NCBI RefSeq assembly: GCF_039645995.1
Contig: NZ_CP147920.1
Span: 1,674,001 to 1,738,000, forward strand
Reading direction: 5' to 3'
DNA: 64,000 nt
From: Sulfurimonas sp. HSL3-1
Lineage (GTDB): Bacteria > Campylobacterota > Campylobacteria > Campylobacterales > Sulfurimonadaceae
The position numbers and the translations under genes were made by a program. The notes below the pieces were generated by a model. It saw nothing but the letters and a program-made list of their open reading frames with translations, did no database searches and was not told where the DNA came from. The first letter of the stretch is position 1. The number at the start of each line of letters is the position of its first letter. Of this stretch, positions 26,275-41,070 are shown piece by piece.

Positions 26275-26324
26275 TCCTACCGATATGGTACTATATGCAT
26301 CTTCAACTTCCGCAGGAGAGTCCT

Positions 26325-27179
26325 ATGACAGGAGGCTTTTTCGCCATTCTCGATGATATCGCGGCGCTGCTCGACGACACGGCTGTCATGAGCAAGGTCG
26401 CGGCCAAAAAAGTGGGCGGCGTCCTGGGCGACGATCTCGCCGTCAACGCCGAACAGGCCTCCGGCCACGCCAGCGCGCGCGAGCTGCCGGTGCTCTGGGC
26501 CATTACAAAGGGCTCTTTCCGCAACAAGGCGATCATCCTCCCCATAGCCTTTCTGCTCAGCGCCTTCGCCCCCTGGGCCATCGTGCCCATCCTGATGCTC
26601 GGGGCGGCCTACCTCAGCTACGAGGGGGCGGAAAAAGTACTGGAATACCTCCGGCCGGGTCACCATGGTGAAGAGCAGAAAGGCGCCGTCGACGAGGCCG
26701 TCAAGATCAAATCGGCCATCCGGACGGACTTCATCCTCTCCATCGAGATCATCGTCATCGCCCTGGGCGTTGTCGCCGGGGAGGCGCTGACGACCCAGAT
26801 CCTCGTCGTCACCCTGATCGCGCTGCTCGCGACCGTGGGGGTTTACGGCATCGTCGCACTGATGGTGCGCATGGACGACATGGGCTTCGCGCTGGTCGGT
26901 TTCAGTCAGACAAGCACGGGGACAAAAGCCGCGGTGCTGAAACGCTCCGGCCTGCTGCTCGTGCAAGCCATGCCAAAACTCATCAAGGCGCTGGGCTACA
27001 TAGGCACCGTGGCCATGCTGCTGGTGGGCGGCGGCATCTTCGTCCACCACTTAGAGTGGCTGCACCACGCTCTCGCTTTTATGCCCTTCGTCCTGCCCGA
27101 ACTCGTAAGCGGTCTTGCCGCTGGTATGCTGCTCGTGGCGCTTGTCCTTCTCTGGGAACGGCTGACGCAGCGGAACTGA
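26325..27179 (+). CDS. DUF808 (YedI-like) inner-membrane protein
   Basis: A 284-residue polytopic protein opening with the family sequence GGFFAILDDIAALLDD, then AAKKVGGVLGDDLAVNAEQA and the ELPVLWAITKGSFRNK loop, with about six membrane spans. Function of the family is unknown. The ATG at 26325 follows CAGGAGAG by 6 nt and is preferred to an ATG 30 nt upstream. It ends PELVSGLAAGMLLVALVLLW...RLTQRN. A diverged copy of this 3' end lies at 31232-31337, which marks this gene as the left border of the accessory hotspot. Confidence 0.88.
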   Translation: MTGGFFAILDDIAALLDDTAVMSKVAAKKVGGVLGDDLAVNAEQASGHASARELPVLWAITKGSFRNKAIILPIAFLLSAFAPWAIVPILMLGAAYLSYEGAEKVLEYLRPGHHGEEQKGAVDEAVKIKSAIRTDFILSIEIIVIALGVVAGEALTTQILVVTLIALLATVGVYGIVALMVRMDDMGFALVGFSQTSTGTKAAVLKRSGLLLVQAMPKLIKALGYIGTVAMLLVGGGIFVHHLEWLHHALAFMPFVLPELVSGLAAGMLLVALVLLWERLTQRN

Positions 27180-27419
27180 TTCTCGGATCGCCATCCAAAT
27201 GATTCCACCATATAATTAGCAAAAACCTTAAGTATTCCTCTGTAGAATATGTGAAATTATGTCATTTTGTTGAGTTTTAAAAATCATTTTTTGATAGCAG
27301 GACACTTTTGATGTCTGAATATCTTTTGAGATTCCGACAAAAGAACATAGTTTTGGTATCAATGAATAGTTATGTAACTGCTAGAAAACAAAAAATACAT
27401 ATCAAGATAAAGAAGAAAA

Positions 27420-30400
27420 ATGACAATTATCAAAGAGCTAAAACGACGAAGTGAGAATCCATCTGATAATGTAAAAATTGAATTAAAGCTTTACAATCTT
27501 GCAGATGAATTAGAGAAAAAAGCCAGAGCTCATCTAAAACGAATCACCAATATACTTCCTGAATTTGATATTCATGATGAAAATCATAGTGAAAAAGTCA
27601 TTTTCAATATAGAGCAGTTATTGGGAGTTGAGAAGATTAAAGAATTATCTTCTTATGAGCTGTTTTTCCTTTATTTATCATCATATTTTCATGATGCAGC
27701 TATGGCACCTTCAGATTGGGAAATAAACACGTTAAAGCTTACAGAAGGAACTGATAAATTTATTTCGTTTGAGCAATCTATTAGACATGACTTAAAGACA
27801 CCATTGAAGCTGTCATCCGCAATTGCGTTGATAAAAGAAAAAAAAGAGCTTCTCTATCCAAAGTTTGAAGGTGATGTAGCAGGTTGGTTGTTTAGTCCAA
27901 AACAAGAAAATATACTAATTGAATACTTAGCTAAATTACTTATTGAATACCAAAATTTTAGAAATGGGTTTGCAGATAAAATTAAAAAGATAAAAAATCA
28001 AAAGGATTTTGACAGCCTAAATGAATTTATTCGAATTGACTACATTAGAGCTACCCATCACATCCGAATAGAAACTTATATCAAACATCTAGAATCATCA
28101 ATCAGTAGTGCATTTGAACAGCCTGCTTGGGGGAAAAAGCTTGCTAAAGACTTGGCATTAATTTGTAGGTCTCATGGTGAAGATGCCAACTTCATTAATC
28201 CATTTGATACTAATGCACAATATTATGGCTCAGAAAGTACTAATTTGCAACTTGTTGCAATTTTGCTTAGATTGGGAGACATTATTCACTTTAGTTTTGA
28301 TCGAGCACCGTTCGACTTACGATCCTCTCGCTTGTTCAAATCAGAATATAGTTTTCAAGAATGGGCAGTAAAAAATAGTGGTGTCAATTATACTATTGAG
28401 AATGGTGAGATAATCTTTAGAGCATATTGTGAAACACCGGAAACCTATTTTAAATTGCACCAATATATAAAATGGATCGAAAATGAAATACAAAACTTTT
28501 TTATTTTCCAGAGACAATGGGAAAAAACGTATATAGAAAATCTAAAAGACAAAGTCAATATAAAAAACATAACAAATGATACAGAAAAATTTCTTCCCCA
28601 ATTAGGGTTAAGTTTTTCATTGAATCAAAATAAAATAATCGAGCTACTGATGGGGGTTGGGCTCTATAAAGATAAGTTTGCTTGCTTAAGAGAGCTCTAT
28701 CAAAACTCGCTGGATGCTTGTCGTTGTGCATTGTCAGAAAATATGGTGTCAAGTATCACATCAAAAAGATCAATCGAATTTTCCCTGATCCAAGATGGAG
28801 ATGAAATTTATTTATCTTGCCTAGATAATGGTATAGGCATGTCGAAATATATTATTGAAAGATATTTACTTAAAATAGGTAATTCTTATTATAAATCATC
28901 AGACTTTTATAGACAACAAGCACAATGGGGAGGAACCTTTACACCTACTTCTCAATTTGGCATAGGTATTCTCTCTTGCTTTATGATTGGGGAGAAAATA
29001 GAAATCACTTCTAAAATGAGAGATAATGATTATGTTTCCTGCACAATAAATGGACCTCATGAAAATTTTTACTATAAAAGTACAACAGAACTTGAAAAAG
29101 AAAAAATTCCTTCTACTGGAACCTGGATAAAAGTATTATTAAATGATGAAACAAAAAGCACATTAGTCAATAGCGAAATCAATAAATTAGGATTGTTGCT
29201 ATTCTCTAAACCACTTAGGTTTGCAGATAATTTTGAAAAGTATGCACCATATTATAAAAATTGGGAACATCATTTATATAATATAGTTAATGGGTTTGTT
29301 CAAATAATACCAGATGATATTGAAGTAAGTGTTACTTTATCTGACAACCAGCTAATTCCAATATGGTCTAAACCTATGGTGCTTGATTTGGACAATAAAA
29401 GATTAGATATCAACGATGATGATTTAGAATTCATCCATTACTTGAATAACTACAGACGTATACATCCTTTCAAAGTAAAATATAGCGAAACAAAAGAATA
29501 TATCGAGACATATATCATATCAGTTTCTTACAAGTCTTTAGAATACAAAACGATACTGACTTTGCCCAAAAATAATTTCAGTTTCATGGAATTAGACCAC
29601 TTATATACAATTCCAACGATTGGAATAAATGGGTTGTGTATTGATGGAATTCTCGTTAATAATAGCAATCTTTTAGGCCTTGACAATGACTATTCAAATG
29701 CACTTATATATATAGGTGTTATGAGTTTTACAGGTGAAACAAGACCACAACTATCTGTCGACAGAACACAGCTAGTAAATTATCCAGTTGAATGTGAACT
29801 TATAGCTAAAGAAGTGGCTAAGTTATTCGTTAGAGAAGTTCTAGACATTACAAAAAAACATATCGAAGTTCATCTCATAAAAGATGATGCTTTAAAATTG
29901 ACTTGGGAATATGTATTTAATAAAATAAATTTTGCTGATATATATTTTATCAATGAGTTATCTCTAACTGAATATGGAAATATAATTTGGGAAGGTTTAA
30001 CAAATAGTATCGATCAAGAAATATCAATTCGAGAATTTTTGTCAAAAAAAGAAATCACATTTAAAGATGTTGATTTCTCTAATCTTGATATTTTGACAAA
30101 AAAGCTAATTTTGACTAAATGTATTTCTGCGAGTGAAATTGAAGTTGATGAAAATACCATGTTCTTGAAGTTTGATGAATTATTGTTTACTGAGTTACTA
30201 CCAAAGGGACGTTCAAATTCTGATAGTGACATAGTGATATTTACAGATAAATGGAAGGGGTCTATTGCTGAGTACGATATAGTCTCTAATTTATACCCTT
30301 TTATATCGCCATCACTATATTCTTTAATGAATCAAGTTGAATTGCAGGAATTTTTCAAATCACATATAAATAAAAAAGTTAAAGTTTTGCATGCCTACAG

Positions 30401-30857
30401 TAATGGAATAACAGCTTTTTTCACTCAGAACCCTTTATTGATAAATGAAAAACTTGGTCTATATTCAGAAGAAAATGACATATACGGAAAAAAGAAAAGC
30501 CAGGTATACAACTTCGAGAAAAAACGAGCAAACTTTTGGCTCAGTGAAATGAATGAAAGAGACTATGAAAATGAAAATATGGACAAGTACGTACTAGTTG
30601 TTTTTATTGCACCTAAAGAATTAACAGCAGAAGAAAAAATCGAATTAGAAAAAATTAAATATGATGATCCATCTTACTATAAAGGTGTGAATCAAGGATG
30701 GAGCTTACTTGTTACAGGAATGAAAAAAGAAAATATTGTGATTATTCCTGGTAAGTGTGAAAGAAAAGTATTGGTTGCTAAATTATCTGACTCTTTTTGG
30801 CAAGAGTATGATAAGTATACTTTTAAGTTTACAGATGGATCTGTAATGGAAAAATAA
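27420..30857 (+). CDS. HD-domain and GHKL (Hsp90-like) ATPase protein, putative defence gene
   Basis: A 1145-residue protein in strongly AT-rich DNA unlike all neighbours. Residues ~45-290 form an HD-type domain: H56 (DENHSEKV), H91-D92 (YFHDAAM), H252 (CRSHGED) and D286 (RLGDIIHF). Residues ~400-575 are a Bergerat/GHKL ATPase: RELYQNSLDACR with E425 and N429, DNGIGMS (469-475), SQFGIGILSCF like the Hsp90 lid motif, and GTWIKV (567-571). The last ~550 residues resemble no family I know. There is no signal peptide, so it should be cytoplasmic. HD plus Hsp90-like fusions are seen in variable bacterial regions; an anti-phage role is inferred from architecture, composition and hotspot location. 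No ribosome-binding site stronger than AAAGAAGAAAA is seen. The 240 bp upstream are AT-rich and empty. Confidence 0.8.
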   Translation: MTIIKELKRRSENPSDNVKIELKLYNLADELEKKARAHLKRITNILPEFDIHDENHSEKVIFNIEQLLGVEKIKELSSYELFFLYLSSYFHDAAMAPSDWEINTLKLTEGTDKFISFEQSIRHDLKTPLKLSSAIALIKEKKELLYPKFEGDVAGWLFSPKQENILIEYLAKLLIEYQNFRNGFADKIKKIKNQKDFDSLNEFIRIDYIRATHHIRIETYIKHLESSISSAFEQPAWGKKLAKDLALICRSHGEDANFINPFDTNAQYYGSESTNLQLVAILLRLGDIIHFSFDRAPFDLRSSRLFKSEYSFQEWAVKNSGVNYTIENGEIIFRAYCETPETYFKLHQYIKWIENEIQNFFIFQRQWEKTYIENLKDKVNIKNITNDTEKFLPQLGLSFSLNQNKIIELLMGVGLYKDKFACLRELYQNSLDACRCALSENMVSSITSKRSIEFSLIQDGDEIYLSCLDNGIGMSKYIIERYLLKIGNSYYKSSDFYRQQAQWGGTFTPTSQFGIGILSCFMIGEKIEITSKMRDNDYVSCTINGPHENFYYKSTTELEKEKIPSTGTWIKVLLNDETKSTLVNSEINKLGLLLFSKPLRFADNFEKYAPYYKNWEHHLYNIVNGFVQIIPDDIEVSVTLSDNQLIPIWSKPMVLDLDNKRLDINDDDLEFIHYLNNYRRIHPFKVKYSETKEYIETYIISVSYKSLEYKTILTLPKNNFSFMELDHLYTIPTIGINGLCIDGILVNNSNLLGLDNDYSNALIYIGVMSFTGETRPQLSVDRTQLVNYPVECELIAKEVAKLFVREVLDITKKHIEVHLIKDDALKLTWEYVFNKINFADIYFINELSLTEYGNIIWEGLTNSIDQEISIREFLSKKEITFKDVDFSNLDILTKKLILTKCISASEIEVDENTMFLKFDELLFTELLPKGRSNSDSDIVIFTDKWKGSIAEYDIVSNLYPFISPSLYSLMNQVELQEFFKSHINKKVKVLHAYSNGITAFFTQNPLLINEKLGLYSEENDIYGKKKSQVYNFEKKRANFWLSEMNERDYENENMDKYVLVVFIAPKELTAEEKIELEKIKYDDPSYYKGVNQGWSLLVTGMKKENIVIIPGKCERKVLVAKLSDSFWQEYDKYTFKFTDGSVMEK

Positions 30858-30905
30858 CATAACAAAACCTCGAACTAAACAGTGAACTATTGGTTGAGTT
30901 GAACG

Positions 30906-31231
30906 TTACTCTCCCTTGCTTCCAAACTGCATAATCACAAATGCCACCGCCGTCCCTCCGACGAGCTGATCGGCCAGGGAGAATGCCCCGCCGAAACAGT
31001 AAGGCTGCAAGAGAAGGACCGTGACGAAACCGCCGCCCAGGGCCCACGGCACGGCCCGTGCGCTTCCGCGTTTTGTAAAGAGCGCCGAGGCGTAGACGCC
31101 CAGCAAGCCGGCATAGGCAAAGCTCATCACCCCCAGCGCGAAACTGACCAACGGCAGGTCCGTCGCACGCTGCCAGTAATAGCTCACGACGGCCATCACG
31201 GTCAGCACGAGCGCGAAGAGCAGTACGGCCT
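30906..31231 (-). pseudogene. Truncated 3' end of a sodium/solute symporter gene
   Basis: About 108 codons encode the C-terminus of a symporter (SYYWQRATDLPLVSFALGVM, then FAYAGLLGVYASALFTKRGS) almost the same as the end of the intact gene at 34275-35771. By eye roughly 90 percent of nucleotides match, with most changes at third positions. Homology stops abruptly at 31231 after the AVLLF codons, where DUF808-like sequence begins. The fragment is a left-over from an alternative allele, not a gene: no promoter, no N-terminus and no ribosome-binding site. Confidence 0.88.
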
Positions 31232-31337
31232 GGCTTTCCTCCCTTCCCTCCTGCCCGAACTCGCAAGTGGCCTCGTCGCCGGGATGCCGCCGGTGGCAAT
31301 TATGATAGCCTGGGAGCGTTTAGTACAACGGCAGTGA
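31232..31337 (+). pseudogene. Truncated 3' end of a DUF808 gene
   Basis: The plus strand encodes LPELASGLVAGMPPVAIMIA, then WERLVQRQ and a TGA at 31335-31337, clearly homologous to the C-terminus of the DUF808 protein ending at 27179. It is fused directly to the symporter fragment at 31231/31232 and has no 5' part. It is more diverged than the symporter fragment. It marks the left border of a second hotspot allele whose cargo is the lipoprotein gene that follows. The rest, to 31543, is AT-rich and shows nothing recognisable. Confidence 0.8.
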
Positions 31338-31543: not shown

Positions 31544-34171
31544 ATGCTCATTCAGATTCGATACGCGCTCGCGGCACTTGTCGCCGTCTCCCTGACTTCC
31601 TGTGCCACTGGCCCATCCCCATCCGCTTCTGCCGGGGCCAAGCCCACCCAAAAATCCGCACCGCCAAAAACAGCCGGCGACCTGGACCCGATGTACCGGC
31701 CACTCGGGGATGTCGATCTTTCGCAATACAAGAGCGCCGGTAACGGCCTGCTGCTGGTTGCCCGAAAGGGCGACTACGATATCCTGCTGACCAAACCCGG
31801 GTACCCCTATGAATTGCCTGCAATGGGCTGGTCCGGCATCAACTACCACAAAGCCACACGAAACGTATCACAGTTCAGCGGGTACATGATGCGCGCGAGA
31901 AATAATGGGAATAATCCACTTCCCTACATCGGGCGCCAGGTATTCGTAGATATTGACGGCGTCGCGGAGTCCTACTACGGATCGTTTGCTTGGAACAGCT
32001 TCAAGCAGTGCCTGTTTTGCAGCCGCGACACCATTGTAGAGTTTGTCGAGGGTATTCCCGAGGTTCGGGACACGGACGGCAAGGTACTTAGAATGCCGTA
32101 CAAGATCAACCGCTATTGGGAATATTGGTATCAATTCAACAGTGGCAACTACGTATGGCATTACGTTACCAATAGCGAACAAACTTCCCGCAAAATCCAG
32201 CTAAGACCGGCTAGCCATGACCAAAAACCGGTCTACACCGAGGTCTCCGGTCTGCCCCAGTACGAATTCGTGCTGCCGCATCCAGAGCAGGTCGCTGCCA
32301 ATTTTCCCAGCACTGACCGTGCGCTGTTCACACGTACCTACTCGCTGGGCGACCTGCTCCGGCAAAAAAAAATCAATCCTGACAACCTGCTCCTGAAGCC
32401 GTTTAGCCCAACCTCGCTGAGGGACAACTTCAATAAATCCAAGATTCACAAGTATGATCATGCCTGGATTTCACACGGCCAGTCGGCGTTCGTCTCCAGC
32501 CCGATGACCGGGAAAACCTACCTGCAGCCGTACCAAAAACCGCCGGTGCTGACACTGCCTTCATTGAAAGAGATCGTCATGAACGGCAAGCTCTCCGTCA
32601 ACCGTCAGTGCATGGGAAAAACGGATGGCATGGTAGTACTCACAGGCCAGTGTGACCCCGCATCGCCGGTGTTCCCACTGACCGTAATGACGCAGATCTC
32701 CGCCAACCAGTTTGTCGTTAACGTGTGGTCGGACATCAATCGCCGCAGCAGCTACCTGCTGACCGGCGGCCAGTTCCCAAAACAAAACTTCTACCGCTGG
32801 AACATCGATGCCTTTATGGTGAACACAACTGTTGATCCCGACACTACACTTGCTGCCCTAGAGACGGGTGACGATCCCTTTTCGGAAAAAATAATCGCCT
32901 TTGCCAACCAAAACCAGGACCGTCAAGTCTGCGACAAGATGGCCACGGCGGTCAGCAACGCCGAAAAAGCCCTGCACTTCGACCCGGATATCGAGGAGCG
33001 TCTCGCGAAATATGAGCACTACTACAAGATGGATTGGGCTGACATGGGCAAGGCCATCTCAAATATCGACAGAAACCCCAAGCACACGCCGGTCACCGAT
33101 TTCGAGGAGTTCGTCTGGGACGATCTGGTCAGTATGAGAACGGACATCGACCAACGTCTCAATGTCCTCAACCGCTACAAGGATGTCAACAATAGCGTAT
33201 GCCAACCGGATCCTCAACGTATGACCCAACTGGTAACGGCGCTCACGAGCTTCAAAGCAGATCTTAGGGCCTCTATGAAACAGTTGGACGACACCTACTA
33301 CGATCAAGCCGTTGAACGCAAAAAAGAGATCTACTATTGGGCCAACCGGCTGGAAGAGGCCAAGAAACAGGCTGCAATGGCACAGTTTATGGACAAGCTT
33401 CATGCCTCACTGAATGCCGATCTGGCGGCAAAACAGGCGGAACGCCGTTCGATGACGCGCAGCATACTCGAGAGTCGCCGCGCCGTCAAGGCCCAAATCG
33501 CGGATGTCAAGGCACGCAATGCCGCTTATTTTGCCAACCATAAACCGGCCGTGAGTGCACCGAGCGCGGTGACCATCGCCCCGGTCACGATGCCGTCGTA
33601 CTCGCTCGACACTACCGCGGATTCAAAGGTCTACCTTGGTGGCTTGAGATCGAATCGTCTCAGTTTCCAAGACGCTATCGCTCAGTCAAAGATCAAAACC
33701 GCACAGCTAAAGCAAACGACTACGGGCACGGCTCCAAACGCGACCGCTGCAACACCGTCCGCAGAGTCGGCCCCTGAAGCGAAACCTTCCAGAGATGCTC
33801 CCGGAGGTGCTGCGATCTGTGTCGCTGTGAGCCGCAATGCCAGCAATAACATGACAGACCTTGGCTACTACTACGCCTATGATCAGCACTCTACGCCACT
33901 CAAGACCGACAGAGTGGCTCGCCAGAAATATGCCGCCGAACACAACGGCACCCCAAGCTGTAAACACAATGACGAAGACGAGGTCGGCGCATTGGTCGTG
34001 GTCGTATGGGACGGCAAGGACTATACCGGTGCCGCAAGCCGAACCTACGGCATGGGCTTCGGTCTATCAACCGGTGCCGCGGAAATGGATGCCGTCAATA
34101 ATCTGTCCAATCGCAACTGGAGCTGGAAACCATCAATGGGCTACCGCGTTGTGTTCGCCAAGCAGTATTGA
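31544..34171 (+). CDS. Large lipoprotein with coiled-coil segment (875 aa), unknown function
   Basis: The signal peptide IRYALAALVAVS ends in the lipobox LTSC (C20), followed by a Ser/Ala/Pro-rich linker; it should be anchored in the outer membrane or periplasm. Residues ~45-430 are a beta-rich region with many aromatic residues (YEYWYQFNSGNYVWHY-like pattern). Residues ~490-660 are charged and helical with likely coiled coil (RKKEIYYWANRLEEAKKQAA; LAAKQAERRSMTRSI). The last ~100 residues form a compact domain with two Cys. No family recognised. Composition is intermediate between the HD-GHKL gene and the chromosome. It is the second cargo of the hotspot. A hairpin (34205-34213 with 34228-34236) follows and may terminate it. 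Confidence 0.7.
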   Translation: MLIQIRYALAALVAVSLTSCATGPSPSASAGAKPTQKSAPPKTAGDLDPMYRPLGDVDLSQYKSAGNGLLLVARKGDYDILLTKPGYPYELPAMGWSGINYHKATRNVSQFSGYMMRARNNGNNPLPYIGRQVFVDIDGVAESYYGSFAWNSFKQCLFCSRDTIVEFVEGIPEVRDTDGKVLRMPYKINRYWEYWYQFNSGNYVWHYVTNSEQTSRKIQLRPASHDQKPVYTEVSGLPQYEFVLPHPEQVAANFPSTDRALFTRTYSLGDLLRQKKINPDNLLLKPFSPTSLRDNFNKSKIHKYDHAWISHGQSAFVSSPMTGKTYLQPYQKPPVLTLPSLKEIVMNGKLSVNRQCMGKTDGMVVLTGQCDPASPVFPLTVMTQISANQFVVNVWSDINRRSSYLLTGGQFPKQNFYRWNIDAFMVNTTVDPDTTLAALETGDDPFSEKIIAFANQNQDRQVCDKMATAVSNAEKALHFDPDIEERLAKYEHYYKMDWADMGKAISNIDRNPKHTPVTDFEEFVWDDLVSMRTDIDQRLNVLNRYKDVNNSVCQPDPQRMTQLVTALTSFKADLRASMKQLDDTYYDQAVERKKEIYYWANRLEEAKKQAAMAQFMDKLHASLNADLAAKQAERRSMTRSILESRRAVKAQIADVKARNAAYFANHKPAVSAPSAVTIAPVTMPSYSLDTTADSKVYLGGLRSNRLSFQDAIAQSKIKTAQLKQTTTGTAPNATAATPSAESAPEAKPSRDAPGGAAICVAVSRNASNNMTDLGYYYAYDQHSTPLKTDRVARQKYAAEHNGTPSCKHNDEDEVGALVVVVWDGKDYTGAASRTYGMGFGLSTGAAEMDAVNNLSNRNWSWKPSMGYRVVFAKQY

Positions 34172-34274: not shown

Positions 34275-35771
34275 CTAGCCGACTGCTTTTTCCTCTGTCC
34301 CCAACTGCATAACCCCGAAAGAGACCATTGCCCCCGCGACGAGCTGATCGGCCAGGGAGAAGGCCCCGCCGAAACAATAGGGCTGCAAAAGCAGGACCGT
34401 GACAAAACCGCCGCCCAGGGCCCACGGCACCGCCCGTGCGCTTCCGCGTTTCGTAAAGAGCGCCGAGGCGTAGACGCCCAGCAGCCCGGCATAGGCAAAG
34501 CTCATAACTCCCAATGCAAAACTGACCAGCGGCAGGTCCGTCGCCCGCTGCCAGTAGTAGCTCACGACGGCCATCGCCGTCAGTACGAGTGCAAAGAGCA
34601 GTACGGCCGACCGGGCAGCGGCCACGTAGTGAGCCTCTTCCGTCTCGCCCCGCGCGCTCTTCCAGGGACGGTAGATGTCTTCCACGGCGACCGAAGCCAT
34701 CGCCGCGAGTACCGAGTTCGTCGAGGAGAGCGCGGCGGCAATCGCCCCCACTGTCACGAAGCCGCGCAGCCCCGCGGGCATTTCGTTGAGGATGTAGGTC
34801 ATGAAAATAGTGATCTTCTCCCCGCCGAACTCCTGCACGGCACCGCCGCCGATGCCGGAGAGTTCCGGGTGGTTGTAAAAGAGGTAGAGCAGCAGCCCTA
34901 TCGCCAGGAAGAGAAGCACGACGGGGATCGTCATGACGATGGAGACGACCAGCGCCCGGGAGCCGTCGCGACCGTTCTTGCAGGCCAGCACGCGCTGGGT
35001 CATATCCTGGTCCAGGCCGTAGGCCGCGATGTTGAGCAGCAGCCATCCGCCCAGCAGGCTCCAGATGCCGAAGTTCCCGGCCGTGTCAATGACAGTCAGT
35101 TTCCCCTCGGCATTCAAAACGTCAACCATTGTGCCGATGTCCGTCTGCAGCGTGCCATAGAGGTAGATCAGTACGGCGACTCCCGCCCCGATGTAGGTCA
35201 CCGCCTGGATGACGTCGCTGTAGATGACCGACTTCACCCCGCCGAAGTAGGTATAGGCCAGCGCGCCCAGCACGAGCATAAGGATAGCGGCAAAGAGGTG
35301 CAGCGGCGCGATGTCGGCGAAGACGATCATCGAAACGGCCAGCGCCCCGATGTAGAGACGCGCGCCGCTGGCGAGGACCCGGCCGACCAGGAACATGATG
35401 CCCGCTTCGCGTTTGGCCTTCGCCCCGTAGCGCTGCTCCAGCAGTTCGTAGACGGTGACGGCGCGGATGGCGTAGAAGCGCGGGACCAGCACCTTGGCAA
35501 TGAAGAGCACGGCCAGCAGCGCCGAGACGTAGAAGCCGACAAAGGTGAGGTTGCTGCGGTAGGCGTACTCCGGGCCGCCCAGGAAGGTCGCCGCCGACTG
35601 CGAGGTCGCCAGCACGGAGACGGCGGCCGCGAGCATCGGGACGCTGTTGCCGCCGACGAAGTAATCGCGCGATGAACGGATGTTCACGCGGGAGAAAAGC
35701 CACGAACTGAAAGCGAGGATGGCAAAATAGCCGCCGAAGACGGTCCAGTCGAGGGGGGAGAATCCCATCAA
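34275..35771 (-). CDS. SSS-family sodium/solute symporter, likely amino-sugar importer
   Basis: A 498-residue symporter with about 13 spans. Family marks: DYFVGGNSVPMLAAAVSVLA, SAATFLGGPEYAY, the sodium-site region GAIAAALSSTNSVLAAMASV and the YTYFGGVKSVIYSDVIQ segment. Start ATG overlaps the NagZ-AmpD stop as ATGA, so the two are translationally coupled. As the partner enzyme releases GlcNAc and anhydro-MurNAc in the periplasm, and anmK-amgK-murU lie on the same strand beyond the hotspot, import of one of these sugars is the best prediction. A truncated relative of its 3' end lies at 30906-31231. Confidence 0.88.
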   Translation of the reverse strand: MMGFSPLDWTVFGGYFAILAFSSWLFSRVNIRSSRDYFVGGNSVPMLAAAVSVLATSQSAATFLGGPEYAYRSNLTFVGFYVSALLAVLFIAKVLVPRFYAIRAVTVYELLEQRYGAKAKREAGIMFLVGRVLASGARLYIGALAVSMIVFADIAPLHLFAAILMLVLGALAYTYFGGVKSVIYSDVIQAVTYIGAGVAVLIYLYGTLQTDIGTMVDVLNAEGKLTVIDTAGNFGIWSLLGGWLLLNIAAYGLDQDMTQRVLACKNGRDGSRALVVSIVMTIPVVLLFLAIGLLLYLFYNHPELSGIGGGAVQEFGGEKITIFMTYILNEMPAGLRGFVTVGAIAAALSSTNSVLAAMASVAVEDIYRPWKSARGETEEAHYVAAARSAVLLFALVLTAMAVVSYYWQRATDLPLVSFALGVMSFAYAGLLGVYASALFTKRGSARAVPWALGGGFVTVLLLQPYCFGGAFSLADQLVAGAMVSFGVMQLGTEEKAVG

Positions 35772-38169: not shown

Positions 38170-38658
38170 CTAGTAGAGTCTGACCGGGAGGACCCAGTCC
38201 GGTTCTGCCGATGCGACGTCCGGATTCTGCATCAGGCTGTTCGACTGATCAATATCATTTCTGTCGCTTTTGTTGACAAATACGACGCTACTCCCGTCGA
38301 TACCGATACGGCGGCGAAACTCCAAACCGTTTGACGCCGCAAACGTCTCCGGGTCAATCCGTTTCCCGGAGACAAAGCGGACGACGATATGGCCGGTCGT
38401 CACATGGCGGAATGCCGCTTCTTTCACACCCCATTTATAGAAGATCTCCCCGGCGTGCGCTGCCTTTTCACTTGCCAGGCGTGCATGATTCGATGCAGCC
38501 TGCTCGGCCGTATCAAATGCTTTTGCTTCCGTCTTGACGAAGAGTGTTTTTCTCCCGTGGCTGTTTTGCAAATAACAAAATTGCCCGATCGAATCTGCGA
38601 AAACCACTCCCGCAACTATCAAGCTTCCCACCATATATACAAGCTTCATCATTCCCAC
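38170..38658 (-). CDS. Secreted protein resembling a subtilisin propeptide (162 aa)
   Basis: After a signal peptide (KLVYMVGSLIVAGVVFA) the second half has the look of an S8 protease prodomain or I9-type inhibitor: GHIVVRFVSGKRIDPETFAA, a beta strand SSVVFVNK, then DVASAEPDWVLPVRLY, which matches the usual prodomain end where the chain enters the active site. It lies 3 bp downstream of a subtilase gene and on the same strand. That protease has no obvious I9 prodomain of its own, so this may act in trans as folding chaperone or inhibitor. The match is by pattern only. Confidence 0.55.
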   Translation of the reverse strand: MGMMKLVYMVGSLIVAGVVFADSIGQFCYLQNSHGRKTLFVKTEAKAFDTAEQAASNHARLASEKAAHAGEIFYKWGVKEAAFRHVTTGHIVVRFVSGKRIDPETFAASNGLEFRRRIGIDGSSVVFVNKSDRNDIDQSNSLMQNPDVASAEPDWVLPVRLY

Positions 38659-38661
38659 CTT

Positions 38662-41070
38662 CTAATGGCCGCTGATCTGTATGCCCCAGCTTGAGAGCGA
38701 GCCGATATAACCGCTCCTGAGATCCATGACCTTCAGACGCCATGTCCCCTGCGCGGGTTCATCCAGGCATCGTACAGTTGAAAAACGCCAATCTGCATAA
38801 CGTTCTACGCCGCGAATGTAGTTTTCACCGCCAACCGCGAGAACGCTTTCCGTCCCCAACGGAGAGACTACTACGATGCGGAGATCATCGATTCGGTAGT
38901 GTTCCGTCGTGATCCAAATATCCACATGTTCGACCGTCATGGATTCACTAACATTCAAGGTACGCTCAATCCCGCTGCTGTTGGCATCGGGAATATCGAC
39001 GTTGGCACTGTCGGTATACAGCGCGCTCGTCTGTTCCTGCCCCAAGGAAGAAAACCCCTCCGCCATAGCGACGGCAGCTGCTGCATCCACGATGCCGAAA
39101 CCGTATTTGTCGTTGATAGGCAGTCCTGCCCCGTTTAGACTCCAACTCCCGTCGGATGCATCGTTCTGACGTGCGCTCCTGGCGAGAATATACCGAACAT
39201 CTCTCCGTGTCAGTGCCGGATTGGCCTGGAGCACCAGGGCACACACGCCAGCCACTGCCGGACAGGCCGAAGATGTCCCGTTCATGAAACGGGTGTAGTT
39301 GCCGTCGGGATTGTTCCCATCAAGCAAAGAGTCACCGAGAACAATCTCGTCATTATCGTACTTTATATCATGCCCGATACCCAGCCCCGTCAGGTCCGTC
39401 GTCACGATGGCAGGGTTCGTAAGCCCATACTCGCCTCCCGTTCCAGCGACAAGCACGTTCGCCCCCGTGTTGGAATATGAGCTTAGCGTACCATCTGCAT
39501 TCACGGATGAAACGGTAATGGCGTATTTGCTGTTATGCAGGCTGGAGGTGTTGGCATATCCCTCATGGCTTGCCGTACGATCATTGCCGGCGGCAAAAAC
39601 ATAGATGGCGCCCTTGCCGTCACGACCGTTCACTGCGCCCTCTTCCAGCGCGCCTTCCAGCACCGGTCCCCAATCGGTCAGTGCGGCTGAAGTCATCGCC
39701 CCCCAGCTGTTCGAAAATATATCGATGCCCGGCCGGAGAAAGGCATCAGCAAAATGGGAGACCCTGCCTGTCGCCAGCACATTAAACCCGGCCAGCCGCG
39801 TCATCGGGGCAATGCCCCGTACCCCCCGTACGTTGAACCCCTGCGCGCCAATAATCCCCGCGCATGCGGTCCCATGGTATCCGATATCACTGCCGAGAGG
39901 CACAGGATCGTTTGCGTGGGTGCCGTAGTGATAGCTCAGGCTTATGTCAAGGTTGTTTGTCAAATCAGGATGCCCGGACTCGACGCCAGTATCGACAATG
40001 CCGACGACCACGTCACCACTGCCGGTAAAAGTGGTCGGCAGCCCGACGATGTCGAGGTCTTCTCCAGCGATGCCCCCGTTTTGCGCACCGCCCGTCTGCC
40101 CCGTGTTCAGCAGGTACCACTGATAGGGAAAAAGCAGGTCCCCCTCGACGCTTCCCCCGTTGAGAGGATCCGTACCGCTCCACACTTCGGCATAATCGTT
40201 CACCCCGTCGCTGTCGCTGTCGGGCAGCCCAGGATCCGTACCGGCGAGCTGTTCAAAGGCGTCCATAAGCCCCTCCTGATCGCCGTCTTTTTTCCAAAGC
40301 CCTTCACTGCCAGCATAGAGCCCTGTTCCATAATTGCCTTCCGCCAGCACCTTGTAACTGTCCGGGTCGTTCAGATAACCGAAATGTGTGGAACAGTTGT
40401 TCTCGATAACGGCAGGGTTAAACCGTGTCAGTGTCGCAGCATCGATCATACTCCCTGCCGGGTCGGAACTGAACAGCTTCTGCGCAACCTTCCCGAGGAT
40501 CATTGTGACCGTTGAGGGCACGGAGAGGTGGCGTTCCGCCGCGACGGCGGCAGCGGCAGAACTGAAAAGGTTGACCGACACGTTGCCGTCGCGCAAAGCC
40601 CCGAAGGTTGCGTAGGCATAAAGGGGACCGGCAAAGCTGCGTATTTCTCCCGGGACGACAAACCCGTCGCCGTCGGGGTCGATCTCATTCCCTCCGCTTA
40701 CTTTCAGAAGCATCATCGTTTCTTCCGAAGGCAGGGACGATACAGCGAAGGTGCGTGTAGCCGAAAAACGGCCGGAGGTCCTTTCGCCGAATGGCAGTAG
40801 TTTTGTCGCCGTCGCGTTGTACTCCGTGCCGTCGCGCTGCGGATCATAAGTGTAGCTTTTAGCAAGAAAAAGAGCGCTGCCGTCCAGCTTCGTCACTTCT
40901 ATATCCGCACCGCAAAGTGCCCCCCTGACTGCCGTACTGCCTCCGATGCTTACGGTAATGGTCTCTGTCGGCGTCGGCGTCTCGGAATGCGAGCCGCTCC
41001 CGCATGCCGTGAGCAGAAAAACAGCTGTGACAGGAGCGATCACTTTATGTACGACGCTATAAAAAAGCAT
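38662..41070 (-). CDS. S8 subtilase/kexin-like lipoprotein protease with P-domain
   Basis: An 802-residue surface or periplasmic protease. Signal peptide and lipobox LLTAC are followed by a ~200-residue region of unknown fold, a Ca-binding acidic repeat (DSDSDGVNDYAEVWSGTDP, thrombospondin type-3-like), and the S8 domain with catalytic Asp in VGIVDTGVESGHPDL, His in YHGTACAGIIGA, and Ser in MNGTSSACPAVAGV. The oxyanion Asn lies near YVFAAGNDRTA. The last ~120 residues are a proprotein-convertase P domain (MTVEHVDIWITTEHYRIDDL; WRLKVMDLRSGYIGSLSSWG). This order is like bacterial kexin-type enzymes. Likely self-contained with the following propeptide-like gene. Confidence 0.92.
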   Translation of the reverse strand: MLFYSVVHKVIAPVTAVFLLTACGSGSHSETPTPTETITVSIGGSTAVRGALCGADIEVTKLDGSALFLAKSYTYDPQRDGTEYNATATKLLPFGERTSGRFSATRTFAVSSLPSEETMMLLKVSGGNEIDPDGDGFVVPGEIRSFAGPLYAYATFGALRDGNVSVNLFSSAAAAVAAERHLSVPSTVTMILGKVAQKLFSSDPAGSMIDAATLTRFNPAVIENNCSTHFGYLNDPDSYKVLAEGNYGTGLYAGSEGLWKKDGDQEGLMDAFEQLAGTDPGLPDSDSDGVNDYAEVWSGTDPLNGGSVEGDLLFPYQWYLLNTGQTGGAQNGGIAGEDLDIVGLPTTFTGSGDVVVGIVDTGVESGHPDLTNNLDISLSYHYGTHANDPVPLGSDIGYHGTACAGIIGAQGFNVRGVRGIAPMTRLAGFNVLATGRVSHFADAFLRPGIDIFSNSWGAMTSAALTDWGPVLEGALEEGAVNGRDGKGAIYVFAAGNDRTASHEGYANTSSLHNSKYAITVSSVNADGTLSSYSNTGANVLVAGTGGEYGLTNPAIVTTDLTGLGIGHDIKYDNDEIVLGDSLLDGNNPDGNYTRFMNGTSSACPAVAGVCALVLQANPALTRRDVRYILARSARQNDASDGSWSLNGAGLPINDKYGFGIVDAAAAVAMAEGFSSLGQEQTSALYTDSANVDIPDANSSGIERTLNVSESMTVEHVDIWITTEHYRIDDLRIVVVSPLGTESVLAVGGENYIRGVERYADWRFSTVRCLDEPAQGTWRLKVMDLRSGYIGSLSSWGIQISGH

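Follow-up and report, generated by a model that had tools for sequence, protein, structure and literature searches.

The combination of an HD-type domain with an Hsp90-like ATPase is already catalogued in Pfam, under the families HD-CE, iHD-CE and wHTH-HSP90_Na-assoc, so that the protein described here is, to judge from its architecture, not a new kind. We take the Pfam "CE" families to have their origin in work on conflict systems. In the literature collection searched, neither HD-CE nor an HD-Hsp90 fusion was the subject of any paper, the text matches to HD-CE being unrelated abbreviations. Hsp90 itself is best known as a chaperone, in which the "LNxSR" motif provides the catalytic arginine. 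A GHKL ATPase is also found as the N-terminal domain of VcSduA, a Shedu protein, where it has been proposed to control the effector within a single anti-phage protein (PMC12137116).

The gene considered here lies in a 64,000-nucleotide stretch of the Sulfurimonas sp. HSL3-1 chromosome (hereinafter the window). It is an open reading frame of 1145 codons without internal stop at 27420-30857 of the forward strand, exactly the coordinates, strand and length given in the preliminary description of this DNA, which had also set it apart from the chromosome by its base composition. The coding sequence has a GC content of 0.305 and a GC3 of 0.243, against 0.590 in the remaining window, and no other 3438-bp stretch of the window falls below 0.492, making it the sole strongly AT-rich stretch of such size. 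The protein combines an HD-CE domain (residues 46-359) with an Hsp90-type ATPase and a middle/transducer fold (400-857), followed by about 290 subfamily-specific residues:

27420..30857, + strand: coding sequence of the HD-CE and Hsp90-like ATPase fusion, 1145 aa, ATG start (ORF, Pfam, NCBIfam)
27555..28496, + strand: HD-CE domain, residues 46-359, with H52, H56, H91-D92, H213, H252 and D287 conserved (Pfam PF24391, conservation, model)
28605..29339, + strand: Hsp90-type N-terminal (Bergerat/GHKL) ATPase domain, residues ~396-640, with E425, N429, DNGIG 469-473, SQFGIG 511-516 and GT 567-568 (Pfam, NCBIfam, structure, hhalign)
29340..29990, + strand: predicted Hsp90 middle/GHKL transducer-like region, residues ~641-857, with the invariant R782 at nt 29763-29765 (VIA-align, conservation)
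29991..30854, + strand: subfamily-specific C-terminal region, residues ~858-1145, partly of low confidence and fast evolving (model, profile search, copy comparison)

The HD-CE domain matches Pfam PF24391 over the full profile (positions 1-263; 144.7 bits against a cut-off of 27, E=5.6e-42). Its ligand pattern is HxxxH plus HD: H52, H56, H91, D92 and H213 are present in all 41 alignment rows covering those positions, D287 is kept in 42 of 42 sequences with a residue there, and H252 in 41 of 42. Among the HD residues originally read from motifs, H56, H91-D92 and H252 are correct and the last is to be moved to D287, position 286 being a glycine. Folded alone, the HD part gives a predicted structure with a pLDDT of 88.9. 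The best Foldseek match of this model is GppA, at a non-significant E of 0.045; structural re-alignment places PPX/GppA and cyclic-nucleotide phosphodiesterases in the best rows at Z 10-12, a range where chance matches of helical bundles occur; and the HD profile run against PDB sequences finds HD-superfamily proteins as best matches at E 0.046-0.2. We treat these predicted fold similarities as leads, with the Pfam match and the conserved ligands as the firm basis of the assignment. Against viral models the domain gave no match at E<0.001. By sequence and structure comparison it is an HD domain of the phosphohydrolase type with conserved metal ligands, for which nucleotides or another phosphoester are the putative substrate class.

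The second domain is recognized by Pfam HATPase_c_3 over residues 423-537 (25.4 bits, cut-off 25) and by the NCBIfam HSP90/HtpG profiles over residues 399-590 (5e-18 and 7e-16), at 64.8 and 57.9 bits, far short of their respective equivalog cut-offs of 455 and 371. A profile-profile comparison by hhalign matches HtpG at 99.7% (E=9.9e-27, residues 395-640). The positions of E425/N429, DNGIG at 469, SQFGIG at 511 and GT at 567 had been read correctly from the start, and E425, N429, D469, G473, G514 and G567 show no variation across the 43 aligned sequences. These span many phyla, including an archaeon, with the catalytic residues conserved throughout, and the same 43-sequence alignment was used for a full-length structure model with a mean pLDDT of 82.6. 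By VIA-align, residues 400-857 of the model superimpose on residues 9-441 of closed yeast Hsc82 (Z 25.6, rmsd 4.2 A, 319 residues), followed by topoisomerase VI-B and GyrB (Z 17-18), as expected for GHKL relatives. The invariant R782 (43/43) sits in "QLSVDR" in the window protein and in "DLDLNSAR" in its relatives, a motif close to that of Hsp90, by which R782 may be likened to the catalytic arginine. Since the sequence-profile match to HtpG covers only residues 395-640, it is the structure and the motif that carry the assignment of a middle domain. The structure check proposed in the preliminary description yields a predicted Hsp90-type GHKL fold and, in agreement with Pfam, an HD-like one. 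The approximately 550 residues said there to have no known family were too pessimistic a count, as the Hsp90-middle/transducer fold extends up to about residue 857; some 290 residues do remain without assignment, and a profile search of PDB sequences with this C-terminal region gave chance-level matches only. Short relatives stop about 60 residues past the R782 position and thus have no equivalent of residues 858-1145; on this evidence, the C-terminal dimerisation domain of Hsp90 is probably not a feature of the family.

A relative from Azospirillum suggests how these parts relate to one another:

L028:4081-8664: caspase-iHD-CE-Hsp90 fusion on an Azospirillum brasilense plasmid, with a wHTH-HSP90_Na-assoc match near residue 1188

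This 1527-aa protein runs from a caspase through an iHD-CE domain (inactive HD, 1.4e-35) to the Hsp90-like part. When it is placed against the family alignment, all six equivalents of H52, H56, H91, D92, H252 and D287 are replaced, and those of E425, N429, D469, G473, G514, G516, G567 and R782 are kept. Though it is one protein, it suggests an exchangeable effector mounted on an Hsp90-like switch, in which the ATPase part would be the core and the enzyme domain the changeable output. That Pfam keeps iHD-CE as a family of its own suggests that this caspase swap is not unique.

Comparison with same-genus genomes places the gene between two conserved genes, one for a DUF808 membrane protein and one for a transporter, which are present in all three complete genomes compared (G004, G006 and G007) and enclose other genes there. 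From left to right, the site reads:

26295..27179, + strand: left flank, conserved DUF808 membrane-protein gene (same-genus comparison)
27193..27372, + strand: constant leader of ~180 bp, 85-86% identical in G004 and G006, where other cargo genes follow it (blastn, alignments)
27373..30898, no strand: variable cargo extent without match to the same-genus genomes at the site, the coding sequence being ~97.5% of it (blastn against the G004 and G006 sites, alignments)
30915..31235, - strand: scar, duplicated 3' end of the transporter gene, protein 89% identical, residues 387-493 (sequence comparison)
31206..31331, + strand: scar, remnant of the DUF808 3' end, residues 252-293, 55% (sequence comparison)
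31544..34171, + strand: second cargo slot, an 875-aa putative lipoprotein, 100% identical in G007 (same-genus search)
34275..35771, - strand: right flank, conserved transporter gene (same-genus comparison)

Homology ends at about 27372 on the left and at 30899 on the right, delimiting a cargo of 3.5 kb that is nearly all coding sequence. The cargo at this site consists of a 432-aa and a 135-aa gene in G004, a 119-aa gene in G007, and an MtlR-like and a DUF4357/GIY-YIG-like gene in G006. The G006 site (L151:1696-5145) additionally holds a 314-aa unknown and small unknowns, with all its genes below the chromosome in GC. The earlier impression that the gene stands alone in a hotspot is borne out by this comparison, and it is likewise the case that no phage or plasmid genes accompany it at the window locus; read from these alignments, the gene is mobile, swappable cargo. 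The leader of about 180 bp upstream of its ATG occurs once in this genome (G000) and may supply a promoter for whichever cargo gene occupies the site. We interpret the fused 3' ends of the transporter and DUF808 genes (30915-31331), common to G007, as the scar of an old cargo-site duplication, which separates the slot of the HD-Hsp90 gene from the second cargo slot. The putative lipoprotein in the latter has no Pfam match and, G007 aside, is absent from the same-genus genomes searched. There is no integrase gene within the cargo, and homologous recombination in the flanks would be the simplest route of exchange. An integron-like hotspot was considered and dropped, there being no recombination-site repeat at both cargo ends. 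Farther to the right, a subtilase-like gene occupies 38662-41070 (- strand), and a separate small ORF at 38170-38658 (- strand) resembles a subtilase propeptide.

In the phylum, HD-CE is sporadic (8 of 397 genomes). The closest copy, 75% identical over its full length, comes from another genus of the same family (G467), and the DNA match to it (window 27382-30848 against 9667-13118 of L162) includes nothing beyond, i.e., it is a one-gene homology block. This copy occupies the interval from dnaJ to recR together with a RhuM-like gene and an MNT/HEPN-like pair, as we name these from their sequences. The two flanking genes are adjacent, about 70-95 bp apart, in six of seven relatives (G468, G471, G414, G053, G474 and G458), and the seventh, G441 (L175), carries a different AT-rich pair there, an AAA-type ATPase (by motifs) with a small partner. 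With inserts in G467 and G441 and none in the other six, dnaJ-recR qualifies as a second cargo site:

G467 C54 (L162:8363-15757), relatives L173-L179: dnaJ-recR cargo hotspot in the other genus of the family

After G467, the nearest relatives are from Bacteroidota (55, 50, 49 and 40% identity) and Heliobacterium (38%), among which the window protein is nested with support of 100/98; other Campylobacterota members are about 22-26% identical to it. Between the window and G467 copies, dN is 0.14 and dS 0.90 (NG86; dS varies by method), pointing to purifying selection. Identity between these copies is 0.88 in the HD part and 0.86 in the ATPase part, against only 0.53 in residues 861-1000. A plasmid collection gave no DNA match, and its protein matches were all below 60% identity, many of them HtpG; phage records gave three short unannotated matches only, to the ATPase region. 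Relatives do occur on plasmids and in nine IMG/VR contigs. A Ruminococcus MAG (L099:6038-12784) has two divergent HD-CE/Hsp90 genes, adjacent and on opposite strands, and the homologues in L049, L122 and L123 are split into two frames, possibly through decay or sequencing errors.

We then surveyed the neighborhoods of 81 homologue loci, taking the two closest ORFs to either side (called as longest ORFs) and matching them to PADLOC models at E<=1e-15. Near genes matched 157 (141 proteins) and 232 (140 proteins) models, against 29 for 140 proteins from the same loci at distances of 6 kb and over, in a tally that counts redundant models rather than genes and in which the far proteins are shorter (mean 283 vs 355 aa). 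Type I R-M specificity and methylase subunits occur among the near genes, as do AriA and the candidates PDC-S02 and PDC-S06; a Chryseobacterium relative (L044) adjoins an AAA ATPase and subtilase pair; and the Pfam tallies near homologues contain resolvases, relaxases and conjugation genes too. By this tally, defence-type matches are more common right beside homologues than among distant genes from the same loci. The homologues are sporadic and horizontally moved, and the survey gave no indication of a conserved housekeeping context. Neighbor clustering for a fixed partner gene recovered at most six related neighbors, some from a single locus and none obligate; on account of this absence of an obligate partner, the protein probably acts alone. 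Within the 64-kb window there is no recognised defence system near the gene, the few PADLOC matches resembling generic helicase, subtilase and ATPase genes, and the 1145-aa protein itself matches no PADLOC model at E up to 1 (2023 library).

The proposal that this is a candidate defence gene is therefore supported by the GHKL and HD-like folds, the sporadic and horizontally moved homologues and their defence-type neighbors, the role being inferred from these. That it is horizontally moving conflict-type cargo we hold to be very probable, and an anti-phage function to be rather likely; the full reading of a horizontally moving single-gene conflict effector, most likely anti-phage, we rate at a little better than an even chance. 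Under the mechanism that we envisage, the protein would dimerise and, as other GHKL clamps do, close upon ATP. A trigger derived from a phage would alter the state of the clamp, with the transducer and the variable C-terminal part as its probable readers, the latter being proposed as a sensor solely because of its variability. The altered clamp would then release the HD domain to hydrolyse nucleotides or another phosphoester, and this activity would halt the infected cell or the phage. In such a scheme, the Hsp90 part would stay constant as the switch and the HD part could be exchanged as the effector, and we regard the scheme as evenly poised between right and wrong. More tentatively, and with the balance leaning somewhat against it, the family could represent a widespread class of bacterial immune proteins in which an Hsp90-type ATP clamp serves as sensor and switch, the effector can be exchanged (an HD phosphohydrolase in most members, a caspase elsewhere), and recognition falls to a C-terminal region that evolves fast.

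The Hsp90 N-terminal and middle fold and the catalytic-arginine motif would also suit a specialised Hsp90-like chaperone or stress protein, whose clamp remodels client proteins, whose HD domain only tunes nucleotide levels or serves as an adaptor, and whose mobility reflects niche adaptation rather than immunity. One homologue, that of G467, is indeed inserted beside dnaJ; however, dnaJ is constant in that genus, and six of the seven relatives have no insert there. The HtpG/HSP90 scores far under the equivalog cut-offs, the short relatives ending about 60 residues after R782, by which the Hsp90 C-terminal dimerisation domain would be no family feature, and the excess of defence models among near genes also argue against such a chaperone, which we consider unlikely. 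Of similarly low probability is a regulator whose HD domain degrades a nucleotide second messenger as a phosphodiesterase and whose Hsp90-like part senses the state of the cell, acting on host physiology or on another conflict system: cyclic-nucleotide phosphodiesterases are among the closest HD-like folds (Z ~11) and the HxxxH plus HD ligand pattern agrees with it, but the homologues have no fixed partner gene and the single gene is inserted stand-alone.

Slightly more improbable still is that the gene serves a mobile element (prophage, plasmid or integrative element), guarding it from rivals or stabilising it, with the chromosomal copy a stranded remnant. While the relatives on plasmids, in nine IMG/VR contigs and near resolvase, relaxase and conjugation genes are in its favor, the insertion here is without element genes, homology to G467 is limited to one gene, and purifying selection has acted between the two copies. 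Should the reading as an anti-phage conflict effector be true, the coupling of a destructive enzyme to an Hsp90-type clamp would make for an uncommon kind of immune switch, the stimulus of which could be addressed with one gene. The DUF808-transporter and dnaJ-recR sites are also ready places to seek further uncharacterised defence genes in the family.

Among known systems, the HD-CE family (PF24391) with a HATPase/Hsp90-like ATPase, annotated as "ATP-binding protein", has the same two domains in the same order with the same catalytic residues. The clade of the window protein (eight members seen) differs from the common HD-CE members of ~810 aa by an extra HD insert of ~50-75 residues and the C-terminal extension of ~290 residues. 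The caspase-iHD-CE-Hsp90 fusion (PF24401; L028) carries the ATPase motifs of the window protein behind a homologous region of HD type; its HD site is lost and a caspase added, whereas the window protein has an intact HD site and no Peptidase_C14 match. With Hsp90/HtpG the window protein has in common the N-terminal ATPase, the predicted middle-domain fold and the catalytic-arginine motif, and it is unlike them in the HD domain placed in front, in scores under the equivalog cut-offs and in short relatives without the C-terminal region. The effector of VcSduA is a PD-(D/E)xK nuclease (DUF4263), of which the window protein has no trace by Pfam or PADLOC (E up to 1); this Shedu protein (PMC12137116) is its nearest tested analogue.
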